In this document: piece by piece, positions 5,113 through 15,774 of the stretch | How the letters are laid out: every line of letters begins with the position of its first letter | Numbering within the stretch: the first letter of the stretch is position 1 | Assembly (NCBI RefSeq): GCF_900109785.1 | Contig: NZ_FOBH01000005.1 | Coordinates: 1 to 64,000 of the forward strand | DNA length: 64,000 bases | DNA from: Nitrosovibrio tenuis | GTDB lineage: Bacteria; Pseudomonadota; Gammaproteobacteria; Burkholderiales; Nitrosomonadaceae | Direction: 5' to 3' | Position numbers and translations under genes: made by a program | Notes under the pieces: generated by a model | What the model was told of the DNA's origin: nothing | Databases searched by the model: none | The model's input: the letters and a program-made list of their open reading frames with translations, nothing else

Positions 5113-5210
5113 GCGGAACCCGAATGCGGAACCCGAATGCGGAACCCGAATACGGAACCCGAATACGGAACCCGAATGCGGAACCCGAATGCGGAACCCA
5201 GGCGCGGAAC
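5113..5210 (+). repeat. 13-bp tandem repeat (minisatellite)
   Basis: Six complete units of GCGGAACCCGAAT (two begin with A instead of G) occupy 5113-5190, followed by a degenerate seventh unit to 5203 and a partial GCGGAAC to 5210. The unit is not a multiple of three, so all frames read through as different Pro/Asn/Glu/Arg-rich nonsense. It lies about 140 bp upstream of the lipoprotein hydrolase and is a likely site of copy-number variation. Confidence 0.95.
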
Positions 5211-11142: not shown

Positions 11143-11496
11143 ATGACCAATTGTAACCTGCCACAGCATGAAGATCATACTCATCCACATGGACCGGAGT
11201 GCGGCCACACGGGTATCATTCATGACGATCACATCGACTATTTGCACGATGGCCACCTGCACTACCCGCACGGCAGCCATGTTGATGAGCACGTCGTAGC
11301 CGTGACGGAAGCAAATCCGGAAAACTGCACGCCTGGGCACGAATGCGCCATGCATAAGCAGGAACATGTGCACGGCCCCGGATGCGGCCACGAGGCCGTA
11401 CCGCACGGAGATCATATTGACTACCTGGTCGGCGGTCATTTGCATTATCCCCATGACGGTCATTGCGATGATCATGGCCCCGTAAAAGTAGCCTGA
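11143..11496 (+). CDS. Histidine-rich metal-binding protein with internal duplication
   Basis: 117 residues, about a quarter of them histidine, with four cysteines in CGH or CTPGHEC settings. The chain is two tandem repeats: each has HGP(E/G)CGH, then DHIDYL, then GHLHYPH, then an Asp/His cluster, the first at about residues 16-50 and the second about 75-110. No signal peptide, so it is probably a cytosolic buffer or chaperone for Zn, Ni, Co or Cu; which metal cannot be told from sequence. The start is supported by AAGAGGA before ATG 11143. It is monocistronic. Confidence 0.8.
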   Translation: MTNCNLPQHEDHTHPHGPECGHTGIIHDDHIDYLHDGHLHYPHGSHVDEHVVAVTEANPENCTPGHECAMHKQEHVHGPGCGHEAVPHGDHIDYLVGGHLHYPHDGHCDDHGPVKVA

Positions 11497-11738: not shown

Positions 11739-12404
11739 GTGTCCGGTACGCCAGCGGCTAAGGAGACGGTGGTGCTGGTGCATGGTCTTTGGATGCATGG
11801 CTGGGTCATGAAGTTAATGGGCTTGCGGCTGGGGCGCTGCGGTTTCGATACGGTTTTCTTCTCCTACCCTTCCATGCGCGACTCGTTATCGCAGAATGCG
11901 TTAGTATTGTCGCGTTTTGTAGCGGATATCGATGCGCCCCGCATACATTTTATCGGCCATAGCCTGGGTGGCCTTTTAATACTACAGATGCTTAATGAAT
12001 TTCCCCAGAGCCGGATTGGCCGCATCATCCTGGCGGGGAGCCCCTACAATGCGAGTTGCGTGGCAACAAAACTTTCCCGCCGCGATCCAGGACGCTATAT
12101 TCTAGGGCGCAGCATGCTGCAGTGGTTGGGCCAGAAGCCCCCGCTGTGCGACGACCAACACGAACTCGGCGTGATTGCCGGTTGCAGGAGCATAGGCGGT
12201 GGCAAACTGATCTCTCGTTTGGCAGTGCCAAATGATGGTGTGGTCACGGTTGAGGAAACACGGATTTCGAACGTAAACGACCGGATAGTGCTCGACGTAA
12301 CCCATTCCGGGATGCTTGTATCTGCCGAGCTGGCTCGCCAGGCATGTTCATTCTTGCGATATGGTCATTTTTTACATAACCGGGAGGACGGGGAGCCAGC
12401 ATGA
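11739..12404 (+). CDS. Alpha/beta-hydrolase (lipase/PGAP1-like)
   Basis: 221 residues from GTG 11739, chosen because AGGAG at 11729-11733 sits five bases upstream; GTG 11715 would add eight residues. It opens directly with the first strand and oxyanion loop VVLVHGLWMHGWVM, and the nucleophile elbow is GHSLGG (FIGHSLGGLLILQM). The Asp may be in VPNDGVV and the His in DVTHSGML, giving a complete triad. No signal peptide. It resembles small cytosolic esterases/lipases of the class with early HG-W motif. The stop overlaps the start of the aminopeptidase gene by ATGA, so the two are translated as one operon. Confidence 0.8.
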   Translation: MSGTPAAKETVVLVHGLWMHGWVMKLMGLRLGRCGFDTVFFSYPSMRDSLSQNALVLSRFVADIDAPRIHFIGHSLGGLLILQMLNEFPQSRIGRIILAGSPYNASCVATKLSRRDPGRYILGRSMLQWLGQKPPLCDDQHELGVIAGCRSIGGGKLISRLAVPNDGVVTVEETRISNVNDRIVLDVTHSGMLVSAELARQACSFLRYGHFLHNREDGEPA

Positions 12405-13495
12405 TAACCAGAATTTTGCACGCGCCACGGCTCGCCGCTGTTGGTTTTATCGTTTGGCTGGGCGGTTGCGCTAATCTCGGCTATTACGCCCAAGCCGTGG
12501 ACGGCCACATGAACATCCAGAACAGGGTCCGTCCGATCCATTCGATCATTGCCGATCCTGAAGCCGATCCAGGATTGAAACGCACCCTGACGCTTGTGGC
12601 GAGACTGCGCGAATTCGCGAGTCGCGAACTCAAACTCCCGGACAACCAGAGTTTTACCACCTATGCCGACCTGGGTCGGCGCTATGCGATCTGGAATGTG
12701 TCCGCCGCGCCCGAGCTATCCATAGAACCGGAAAAATGGTGTTTCGTAGCGGCCGGCTGTGTCAGTTATCGTGGCTTTTTTTCAGAGGCTGAAGCCCAGC
12801 GCTTTGCTGAAGAACTCAGGGCTAAAGGTTATGATGTAAGCGTAGGCGGCGTTCGCACCTACTCCACGCTCGGGTGGTTTAAGGACCCCATACTCAATAC
12901 CTTCCTTGGCTATTCTGACGCGGAGCTTGCGCAATTGATATTTCACGAGCTTGCCCACCAGATGGTCTATGTGCAGGATGACAGCACTTTCAACGAATCG
13001 TTTGCCACTGCGGTTGAACTGGAAGGCATAGCCCGCTGGCTGGGCCAGCATGGTGCGGAGGATCAACGTGCCGCGTTTGACGCTTCTCAAAAAAGGAAAG
13101 CTGCTTCCACCGCAATAATGCTGGATTATCGCAAGCGCCTGGAAGAGCTGTATGCCTCGAGTCAGAGCCTGGCCGAAAAGCGGGTGGGCAAGGCGCGTAT
13201 CCTCGGCGAGTTGCGCGAAAAACTATCGAGCCTGGAAACCGATAAGGCCCGGTCCGCCAGTTATGATAAATGGCTGACGCTGCATCTCAATAATGCCTTT
13301 CTGGCTTCCGTCTCGACCTATACGCATTGGGTGCCTGCATTTCATGCGCTTCTTGCCCGGCACGAGGGAGATATCGGCCAATTTTACGAAACCGTGAGAG
13401 AACTAAGCCGGCTTCCAAAAGCGGAGCGGACTACCCTCCTCCACAGCACGGATGGACGCACCCTTTCCGCCAGCAATACGGACCCACAGGAATAG
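12401..13495 (+). CDS. Predicted zinc aminopeptidase lipoprotein (COG4324 type)
   Basis: 364 residues. The signal peptide ends in the lipobox LGGC (Cys about 24), so it is a lipoprotein. The body matches the Aminopep family (PF10023): a metallopeptidase HELAH (in IFHELAHQMVYV, about residue 187) with the third zinc ligand in NESFATAVE some 17 residues on. The C-terminal half is helical and charged. It is the second gene of a two-gene operon with the hydrolase upstream, suggesting joint processing of an envelope or exported substrate; the substrate is unknown. Confidence 0.85.
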   Translation: MITRILHAPRLAAVGFIVWLGGCANLGYYAQAVDGHMNIQNRVRPIHSIIADPEADPGLKRTLTLVARLREFASRELKLPDNQSFTTYADLGRRYAIWNVSAAPELSIEPEKWCFVAAGCVSYRGFFSEAEAQRFAEELRAKGYDVSVGGVRTYSTLGWFKDPILNTFLGYSDAELAQLIFHELAHQMVYVQDDSTFNESFATAVELEGIARWLGQHGAEDQRAAFDASQKRKAASTAIMLDYRKRLEELYASSQSLAEKRVGKARILGELREKLSSLETDKARSASYDKWLTLHLNNAFLASVSTYTHWVPAFHALLARHEGDIGQFYETVRELSRLPKAERTTLLHSTDGRTLSASNTDPQE

Positions 13496-13773: not shown

Positions 13774-15774
13774 CTATTTGATGATCGGCGCCGCGCTCAG
13801 CGCAGGATGAAGCAGCTCTATCTCGTAAAGATACCGGCCTTGCTGTGGCGGTGAATAAGTCCGGTAACTGGAAACGACGTCGGGCTCCAGGTGTCCTGCG
13901 ACGTGTTCCAGGTCCGATAATCTCAGGCCCTGCCGGACAAGATACGCAATGTAGCTATGCCGGATTGCTTCCGCAGTAATTCCTTCCGCATCGGGCAGGC
14001 CTGAGTCCACCGCCGCGCAGACCAAAGCCGCGGAAAGATCGACGCGCGAACGTGGATCATCCGGGTCCCATAAAGGCTGGCCCTCGGACTGCTTGAACAG
14101 TGACTGGAGAAAACCACTGATGGGAACGGTTCTCGCCGTTTTGCCCGCAAGAGTGATTGTTCCTGTCTCCAGATCGATTTGATCCGGTTCCAAAGACACG
14201 GCTTCATCTATATCCAAACCACTAAGCAATAAGCCGATCAGTTGCTTCCCTTTGAGGTTGGCGGCATTGAGAAGAATCCTGAGCTGATGACTGGACAGTT
14301 CGCGGTGTAAAGGGCCGGGCAGTAAGCTATTGGCTTTTTGTTCTGGCAGTTTCTGATCCGAGGAACCGAGCGCGCTTCGCGGATAATCAGGCAAACTCCC
14401 GACCGCCGGTGAAGCCGCCGCGGGGTATCCCTGCATTCCAAAAACAGCGATGGAAGGCTGCTGCTCCTTTTTTTGAGTCAGATACTCTGAAATCCACACA
14501 CCGAAGAGGCCCAAGAGTAGGGAACCCGCAATCACTATCAGAGCATCGCGACTATATTCCGGTCTCACCGGCTCGCGCGTTTCATAGGCCCTGCTAATTA
14601 CTGTAACTTGCGGATACTTCTCCCGATGGCTGGTCTTGACCTGCACCAACCGTTCTTGCGCGTCACGGTAGAGCTTTTCCAGACCTTCCAGATCGGTTTT
14701 CAATGCATCATGTTGGGTAAATTTCGACGTAAATGCCGAGGCCTGCTTTTTGTGCTCATCCAACTGTACGCGAAGTTCACGAATGGTTTGTTGCGCCGCA
14801 GCGTAATTCATTTCGGCATCGGTTAACACGACATTTTTCCCGTACTGACGCTTATTGTTAACCGCGGACTCCAGCTCCTTGATTTGCTGTGGGATGGATT
14901 TTAAATCCGGCTGCAGATTCAGGTACTCGCGTGTAAATTTTTTATCGAGGTCTGCCAGTTTCTCGCGCAAATCATGTAACCGTTTCTCCAGGTCGAGCAA
15001 ACTCCCCTTCTCATCCTCTGGAACCACTGCCTGCCCGCGGGATATGGCGGTCCTGATCGCATTCAGAGTGGACTTCGCCTTGACTTCCTCCTCGCTGGCC
15101 TTGTTGAGGGAATCAGTCAAGCCTTTGAGGCGGGCCAGTGCTTCATTCTCATTGCGCTCGGTCGAGGAAATATCGTGGCTTTTTCGGAAAGACTCCAGCT
15201 CCGCCCGGGCAGAATCGATTTTCACGCTCAATCCTTTCAGTTCGTCTTCCAGAATACGAGTCGTGTCGTTTGTCTGCTTTCTGACTTCCTCAGCACGCGC
15301 ATCGAGGTATACGTCTATCCAGGTATTGATGAGTAGTGGCAAAAACTTCGGGTCGCCGCCCTCAGCCTTTATTTCGACGAGATTGGTGTCTGCGACCGGT
15401 TCCACATTCAGCAGATTCTGAATATCGGATGTGGTCAACCGAGCCAAAAATTGATGCGCGTCTGATGCCTTGAGCCGTGACAAAGTCTCGGCAATCAACT
15501 CATGTCCCAGCAAAATTTGCCGTTGAATGGCTACATGCTGAATATCGGCATCGTTGCTTCCACGGTCAACCGGCGTCATTGCCGAAGTCAACAATGTGGC
15601 ACTACTGCGATAAATGGCCGGACGGCTGTAATTGTAGGCCAGACCTATGGTAACGCTGACCAAAAACACAACAAGAAAAATGCTCAGCCTGCGCGACCGG
15701 TACCATGGCTGGTCACTGGTGCCGGCAGAGGAGTAGAAATTGCTCGCGAAACGCTGATTGATCTTATTTTTCAT
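13774..15774 (-). CDS. Wzz/GumC-type polysaccharide co-polymerase fused to a tyrosine-recombinase-like domain
   Basis: 666 residues from ATG 15774 (the frame is open to 15846; ATG 15798 is also possible; no clear ribosome binding site decides). N-terminal part: TM1 at about 30-47 (LSIFLVVFLVSVTIGLAY), a Wzz periplasmic domain beginning YRSSATLLT, a long coiled coil (about 150-390, many LxxLxxK/E heptads), the GNVR-like stretch and TM2 at about 412-432 just after a proline-rich PxxP (REPVRPEYSRD). This is the architecture of chain-length regulators for exopolysaccharide export. Where related proteins carry a BY-kinase, this one has a cytosolic linker and then, at about 490-660, a fold matching phage integrases: SGLDIDEAVSL, TITLAGKTARTVPIS, EAIRHSYIAYL, EHVAGH and SSYRTY. 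The first catalytic Arg (GLR) is Asp and the His of HxxR is Glu, so catalysis is unlikely. No other polysaccharide gene is adjacent. Confidence 0.85.
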   Translation of the reverse strand: MKNKINQRFASNFYSSAGTSDQPWYRSRRLSIFLVVFLVSVTIGLAYNYSRPAIYRSSATLLTSAMTPVDRGSNDADIQHVAIQRQILLGHELIAETLSRLKASDAHQFLARLTTSDIQNLLNVEPVADTNLVEIKAEGGDPKFLPLLINTWIDVYLDARAEEVRKQTNDTTRILEDELKGLSVKIDSARAELESFRKSHDISSTERNENEALARLKGLTDSLNKASEEEVKAKSTLNAIRTAISRGQAVVPEDEKGSLLDLEKRLHDLREKLADLDKKFTREYLNLQPDLKSIPQQIKELESAVNNKRQYGKNVVLTDAEMNYAAAQQTIRELRVQLDEHKKQASAFTSKFTQHDALKTDLEGLEKLYRDAQERLVQVKTSHREKYPQVTVISRAYETREPVRPEYSRDALIVIAGSLLLGLFGVWISEYLTQKKEQQPSIAVFGMQGYPAAASPAVGSLPDYPRSALGSSDQKLPEQKANSLLPGPLHRELSSHQLRILLNAANLKGKQLIGLLLSGLDIDEAVSLEPDQIDLETGTITLAGKTARTVPISGFLQSLFKQSEGQPLWDPDDPRSRVDLSAALVCAAVDSGLPDAEGITAEAIRHSYIAYLVRQGLRLSDLEHVAGHLEPDVVSSYRTYSPPQQGRYLYEIELLHPALSAAPIIK

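Follow-up and report, generated by a model that had tools for sequence, protein, structure and literature searches.

The gene examined here lies on the reverse strand of a 64,000-nucleotide window (the whole stretch of DNA that was analyzed) from Nitrosovibrio tenuis contig NZ_FOBH01000005.1. It reads uninterrupted from an ATG at position 15774 to a stop codon at 13774-13776 and encodes 666 amino acids. Because it converges with an aminopeptidase-like gene (12401-13495, + strand) and diverges from a LigB-type gene (16626, + strand), it is probably transcribed alone. Elsewhere in the window, positions 11143-11496 (+ strand) encode a 117-amino-acid His-rich protein that has two similar stretches (around HDDHIDYLHDGHLHYPHG and HGDHIDYLVGGHLHYPHD) and no Pfam match, and a 13-bp unit is repeated in tandem, in about 6.7 copies, at 5113-5210.

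Hydropathy averaged over 19 residues exceeds 1.6 only in windows starting at residues 27 to 32 and 408 to 414, indicating two transmembrane (TM) segments only, at the positions seen in polysaccharide co-polymerases (PCPs). The tail formed by residues 1 to 30 contains six K/R and one D/E, and P402, P405, and Y407, just ahead of TM2, are invariant in the 25 proteins of alignment A1 (see below). Between the two segments, in residues ~156 to 395, some Pfam coiled-coil models match weakly, below cut-off, and a simple heptad count finds one short coiled-coil-like stretch. Residues 434 to 490, which follow TM2, have a mean top-residue frequency of 0.317, the lowest among seven segments. The predicted order runs from a cytosolic N-tail through TM1 into a periplasmic domain that is long and helical; beyond TM2 come a flexible linker and a last domain that, judging from this topology, would be cytosolic (Table 1).

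Table 1. Features of the fusion gene and its predicted product, in window coordinates
Feature	Extent in protein	Position	Strand	Basis
Whole gene, PCP-2-like membrane protein plus pseudo-tyrosine-recombinase domain	666 aa	13774..15774	-	One open frame; TIGR03007/TIGR03017 and PF00589/NF040815
TM1, preceded by basic N-tail	~29-50	15625..15690	-	Hydropathy windows starting at 27-32
Putative periplasmic domain, helix-rich part	~156-395	14590..15309	-	Spanned by PCP profile matches
TM2	~408-432	14479..14553	-	Hydropathy
Putative cytosolic linker, variable	433-490	14305..14478	-	Least conserved of seven segments
Pseudo-tyrosine-recombinase domain	491-660	13795..14304	-	PF00589, hhalign, PDB profile
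Catalytic Arg I position	D521	14212..14214	-	Arg in 0/79
Beta-hairpin Arg	R548	14131..14133	-	Arg in 78/79
HxxR His position	E602	13969..13971	-	His in 0/79, Glu/Asp in 56/79
Catalytic Arg II, retained	R605	13960..13962	-	Arg in 72/79
Nucleophile position, retained	Y637	13864..13866	-	Tyr in 71/79

A sequence-only reading of this DNA had described a chain-length-regulator architecture (TM1, coiled coil, TM2); the two TM segments bear this out, and the matches of the N-part point the same way. The best named matches are TIGR03007 (E = 3.8e-18, 65 bits, below the curated cut-off of 278.85) and TIGR03017 (E = 3.2e-15, likewise below its curated cut-off), which describe EpsF/XrtA-system chain length determinants, and a profile search also matched Wzc structures (7nhr and others) at 2.8e-7. 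At E <= 1e-3, TIGR03007 matches 52 and TIGR03017 matches 48 of 53 members. Two results count against reading the fusion as a co-polymerase: the Pfam Wzz model (PF02706) matches just 5 of the 53 members, the window protein not among them, and all PCP matches of the window protein fall below curated cut-offs.

The same reading had recognized a degenerate tyrosine recombinase in the C-terminal domain (CTD), and here too the profile searches agree. PF00589 matches the C-terminal 192 amino acids above noise (E = 1.6e-6, 28.4 bits versus a cut-off of 27.1), reaching 24.3 bits, below cut-off, on the whole protein, and when hhalign compares the domain alignment with ten recombinases from the source genome, the probability is 97.8 (E = 7.2e-13). 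The XerA structure 4a8e (PDB) is matched at 2e-7 with the single sequence and at 1.6e-11 by profile, and NF040815 (XerA) matches the window C-part at 1.3e-8, below its equivalog cut-off. Among the 53 aligned members taken singly, PF00589 matches 21 and NF040815 matches 40 at E <= 1e-3. Pfam and NCBIfam profiles gave no kinase match in the window C-part. The N-terminal core-binding domain of recombinases is absent; a PCP-like protein precedes the catalytic domain in one frame. The putative cytosolic domain would descend from a Xer-type tyrosine recombinase, of which it keeps the catalytic half.

That two neighboring genes had been joined by a frameshift or by assembly, an artifact considered in the sequence-only reading, is ruled out. 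Scanning the GTDB contig collection with domain alignment A2 returned 67 loci, and in 63 of them one open frame of at least 600 amino acids covers both parts; the domain pair, which the reading proposed to look for in other genomes, is a conserved fusion. The other four are three broken or cut copies (L077, L092, and L113) and a fragment at a contig end (L122), and a stand-alone recombinase-like domain is found at none of the 67 loci. The copies in L077 (Methylobacter) and L113 (Methylococcaceae) are split over two frames. An initial scan of the contig collection with a single sequence had returned 182 stretches, none of them a confirmed relative.

Within its own family, the fusion was found in two genera. 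A single-protein search of 61 genomes, the source genome included, matched 35, of which 25, all from the window's genus and from genus g3 (Nitrosomonas), match over both parts and the rest over the N-part only. Alignment A1, made of 25 proteins, was used to score family genomes at E <= 1e-20. Of 125 such genomes, 48 gave a match, which spans both parts in 47 and reaches no further than position 310 in G072. They include 22 of the 23 listed genomes of the window's genus (Nitrosospira with Nitrosovibrio), the exception (G002) being 80% complete and in 450 contigs, and 26 genomes of g3, among them G072 with its first half only; the family's two other genera had no match to A1 among the 125 genomes. 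Broader samples yielded 10 of 399 genomes for the order (four outside the family), 6 of 369 for the class (four outside the family), and 2 of 299 for the phylum (both from the family).

The fate of the catalytic residues was followed in a single MAFFT alignment of 79 distinct proteins, many of them close relatives, so that the counts are not independent. This set excludes L122 and loci whose best frame falls short of 550 amino acids, and it counts only once those proteins that are identical over their last 400 residues, which brings 119 down to 79. A different sequence selection skipped L077, L092, L113, and near-duplicates. The Asp that the sequence-only reading saw in place of the first catalytic Arg (SGLDIDEA) is D521, and the Arg I position is occupied by T (37), S (28), D (7), A (3), N (2), or G (2) but by Arg in none of the 79. 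Similarly, the Glu noted in place of the His of HxxR is E602, with R605 kept and the Tyr of SSYRTY corresponding to Y637; this position holds E (37), D (19), A (11), and others but never His. Retention elsewhere is uneven: K in 12, the third His in 16 (the GH motif of the window protein is G627-H628), Arg II in 72, Tyr in 71, and the hairpin Arg in 78 of the 79 proteins. As a control, all ten recombinases compared from the source genome have the complete R-K-H-R-H/W-Y set of six, without variation. Catalysis by the CTD should be gone, in line with the earlier suspicion that the domain is probably no recombinase any more. The widely kept Arg II and Tyr might suggest an enzyme that is still active, as a recombinase or in the manner of a topoisomerase, through an altered chemistry, but we find this hardly credible with Arg I and the HxxR His missing in 79 of 79 proteins and Tyr itself missing in 8.

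Charge bears on DNA binding, which the sequence-only reading had entertained as a coupling of export to DNA or to nucleoid position. In the 79 proteins, the domain has a median pI of 5.12 (4.33 to 7.15) and a median overall net charge of -6 (-11 to 0), positive in none, although an overall value might hide local basic patches. The equivalent regions of XerC and XerD of the same genome have pIs of 9.5 and 9.8 and charges of +5 and +6, and the 11 recombinase stretches measured (L123-L133, not all complete) among the 20 PF00589 places of this genome carry +1 to +7. DNA binding by the CTD is unlikely because of its zero or negative net charge, its lost catalytic residues, and the missing core-binding domain. 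A domain that still binds DNA without recombining, and so anchors some envelope machinery at the nucleoid or at a particular sequence site, would be consistent with the recombinase fold implied by homology and with the large retention of R605, R548, and Y637. Nevertheless, we regard such a tether as very improbable, given that charge never rises above zero, that the HxxR His position is acidic in 56 of 79 proteins and Arg I is lost in all, and that the core-binding domain is missing. The reading's alternative of a protein-binding module fares better than coupling to DNA, as an interpretation reached by exclusion and analogy.

The recombinase-like domain is under purifying selection, as judged from dN/dS in 17 close pairs, some of which share loci. 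The ratio for the CTD is 0.08 to 0.26 in 16 pairs and 0.50 in one, that for the N-part is 0.05 to 0.22, and that for the linker is 0.07 to 0.53, all of them rough for L064/L060 and L086/L088, where dS exceeds 1 in all three segments. The CTD ratio is higher than that of the N-part in 16 of the 17 pairs, which counts against the co-polymerase reading and would suit a CTD that is a passenger with little function left. So would its loss in one genus of the methanotroph order (g558), where the match ends at about position 460 to 509, before the CTD, in 11 of 17 matching genomes; the CTD is therefore dispensable, or can be lost, in g558, which again counts against co-polymerase function. In the six g558 proteins inspected, TM2 is followed only by a tail of ~60 residues, and querying these six genomes by tblastn with two CTDs brought up no trace of the domain (best E = 0.42). 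These orthologues without the recombinase domain (L141-L145 and L151), which end in a short charged tail, amount to a natural domain-loss experiment. We nonetheless consider a passenger improbable, since dN/dS stays at 0.08 to 0.50 across all 17 pairs, Q and G of the domain's RQG motif are invariant in 53 proteins, and the CTD persists at loci of both Beta- and Gammaproteobacteria. The sequences themselves show the architecture and the homology, that catalytic residues have been lost, that the charge is zero or negative, that selection is purifying, and that the two parts are conserved together, as well as a gene tree (below) suggestive of horizontal transfer.

The gene tree separates the ammonia oxidizers. 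It has 79 rows, nine of the 79 proteins (loci below L046) being replaced by nine methanotroph-order rows. In this quick tree, which is midpoint rooted only and in which long branches and odd letter makeup were flagged in several distant rows, 16 Nitrosospira/Nitrosovibrio rows and eight Methylobacter-like rows form a 24-row group (SH-aLRT 100), and 16 Nitrosomonas-group rows (two from g3 genomes and one labelled Burkholderiales) stand apart. A single clade of all 32 ammonia-oxidizer rows was rejected (p-AU 4e-5, with groups chosen after the first tree), and a domain-only tree (70 rows) gave the same groups supports of 98 (24 rows), 99 (16 rows), and 76 (Nitrosomonas group). Because the Nitrosospira copies group with Methylobacter-like copies, apart from the Nitrosomonas group, the simplest reading is that the fused gene was transferred horizontally as one unit between methanotrophs and ammonia oxidizers, and the direction would be from a methanotroph to Nitrosospira.

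The organisms of the 67 loci look almost wholly like methanotrophs and nitrifiers, as seen with a single search pattern whose alignment is rich in those groups. A strict link to AMO/pMMO is weakened, and the association is not strict. In the class sample of 369 genomes, AMO was found in 11 and the fusion in 6, with both in 3 (two from the window's family), and AMO was absent from the fusion carriers G565, G601, and G822. Among 21 chosen genomes, 6 have an AMO/pMMO match and 15, some of them incomplete metagenome assemblies, have none. A divergent form of the protein occurs at L117-L121, of which L117-L119 belong to Candidatus Nitrotoga and the other two to betaproteobacterial MAGs; the L117, L118, and L120 genomes yield no PF02461 (AMO) match.

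Genomic neighbors vary among lineages. In the Nitrosospira loci inspected (the window and L026), we saw no polysaccharide gene adjoining the fusion, which counts against the co-polymerase reading. In five methanotroph-order loci (L106, L111, L112, L155, and L156), an ABC exporter frame starts -1 to +15 bp downstream (L106 is from Methylocaldum); two of the five were checked against NCBIfam and are nearest to MsbA, below its cut-off. A glycosyltransferase-cluster gene follows the fusion in ten loci, nine of them distinct (L104 and L158 are one contig), overlapping it or within 45 bp in eight distinct loci and 256 bp away in one, and the one cluster member checked is TIGR04283, above cut-off. 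At several of these loci it is accompanied by a fatty-acid-hydroxylase-like gene and by one of TIGR04282 type. At L043, translations read by eye place the fusion among polysaccharide genes, namely a glycosyltransferase, a ligase-like gene, a mannose-phosphate guanylyltransferase, a nucleotide-sugar dehydrogenase, an epimerase, and an aminotransferase. Four related Nitrosomonas loci (L090, L091, L096, and L097) have a divergent upstream gene of a GGDEF cluster (two checked with Pfam), and neighbors differ in other distant loci, e.g., L052-L055. Upstream of the fusion and in the same orientation, L075, L079, L082-L085, L104, and L153 have a gene for an SNF2-type helicase (tested in one member); these eight distinct, methanotroph-type loci include seven that also have the downstream glycosyltransferase. 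Of them, L083 belongs to the cultivable methanotroph Methylotuvimicrobium buryatense 5G.

The N-part could instead be related to PCPs but have been recruited to a different role in the envelope of methane and ammonia oxidizers, such as organizing intracytoplasmic membranes, with no co-polymerase activity. Such membranes are present in methanotrophs and ammonia oxidizers. Of 151 genomes from the Methylotuvimicrobium order, 60 match the gene (48 of these over the CTD), and nearly all listed genomes of the window's genus carry it, there as an orphan. We consider this unlikely in view of Nitrotoga and the other hosts without detectable AMO/pMMO (15 of the 21 genomes above, incomplete MAGs among them) and of the exporter, glycosyltransferase, or polysaccharide neighbors in some lineages.

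Overall, we think it reasonably probable that the fusion is an inner-membrane PCP-2-like co-polymerase for polysaccharide or glycolipid, with the dead recombinase domain as a protein-binding or self-assembly module. We infer the co-polymerase function from family resemblance and neighbors and the scaffold role by exclusion and by analogy with EcpK. The sequence-only reading had pointed out that a tyrosine kinase occupies the equivalent place in relatives, which is so for Wzc-type proteins. In Wzc octamers, a tyrosine-rich tail sits in the kinase site of the neighboring copy and phosphorylation frees the copies (PMC8285477). The EcpK pseudokinase is proposed to guide its PCP through binding alone (PMC12004946). 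Because the fusion has no kinase and keeps a conserved dead enzyme in the same place, we suggest that the domain associates with a partner or with further copies of itself, and a protein-binding module in the kinase's place seems likelier than DNA binding. With its catalytic residues, and very probably also its DNA binding, gone, the domain would act at the cytosolic base of the complex to set the oligomer state and may aid oligomer assembly and release without phosphorylation, the task of the tyrosine kinase domain in Wzc.

A more specific scheme is offered tentatively, as a possibility that we would not expect to hold in full. Here the domain would be an exapted switch in which dead Xer-like domains form a ring under the membrane and drive phosphorylation-free PCP assembly, the whole unit having spread horizontally among methanotrophs and ammonia oxidizers. 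Xer proteins exchange a C-terminal segment with their neighbor, and the ring may perhaps pack in this style, with the C-terminal segment passed to the neighboring copy. The window protein has an HPAL-like end versus HPR at the XerC and XerD ends, a weak resemblance in a region unaligned in the 79-protein alignment.

If the co-polymerase reading is true, the kinase below a polysaccharide co-polymerase would be replaceable by an unrelated dead enzyme, which bears on how PCP oligomers cycle. The protein may also represent a bacterial domestication of a tyrosine recombinase in a membrane protein, and the fusion would mark a gene exchanged between methanotrophs and ammonia oxidizers. In the titles and abstract beginnings of the best-ranked literature matches, with subscription journals largely outside this scope, the fusion is unnamed, and no earlier membrane-protein domestication of a tyrosine recombinase appears among the best-ranked titles and abstract beginnings.

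Several known systems resemble the fusion in part. Like Wzc (a PCP-2a protein with a C-terminal tyrosine autokinase), it is a membrane protein whose periplasmic part is long and whose chain continues past TM2 into a C-terminal domain, and its profile matches the Wzc structures; however, its C-terminal domain is a pseudo-recombinase and not a kinase, and a tyrosine-phosphorylation cycle is not implied. The EpsF and XrtA-system determinants (TIGR03017 and TIGR03007) are nearest to the N-part by name, whereas the source genome's two ordinary PCPs, with frames 495 and 508 amino acids long, lack a recombinase domain and are each followed by a separate BY-kinase match, ~0.4 and 0.7 kb past the frame end, the first of which contains one TGA. 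TIGR01007, the BY-kinase model, matches five places in the genome, two above cut-off, and none on the window's contig. Xer-type recombinases (XerA, XerC, and XerD) share homology and the motif order of the catalytic half, but the fusion lacks their core-binding domain, Arg I, and HxxR His, has zero or negative charge, and is membrane anchored. DUF3504 of animals, derived from Cryptons, likewise comprises domesticated tyrosine recombinases without most catalytic residues, but it is eukaryotic, is found in many cases in transcriptional regulators (PMC3212892), and is assumed to be of separate origin. The closest functional parallel may be EcpK-EpsV of Myxococcus xanthus, a proposed phosphorylation-independent PCP-2 pair (PMC12004946), where a catalytically dead enzyme fold serves a PCP-2 from the cytosolic side, as we suppose here. 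EcpK is a separate pseudokinase, whereas the dead enzyme here is a recombinase and is fused to its PCP, so the analogy would be functional only.
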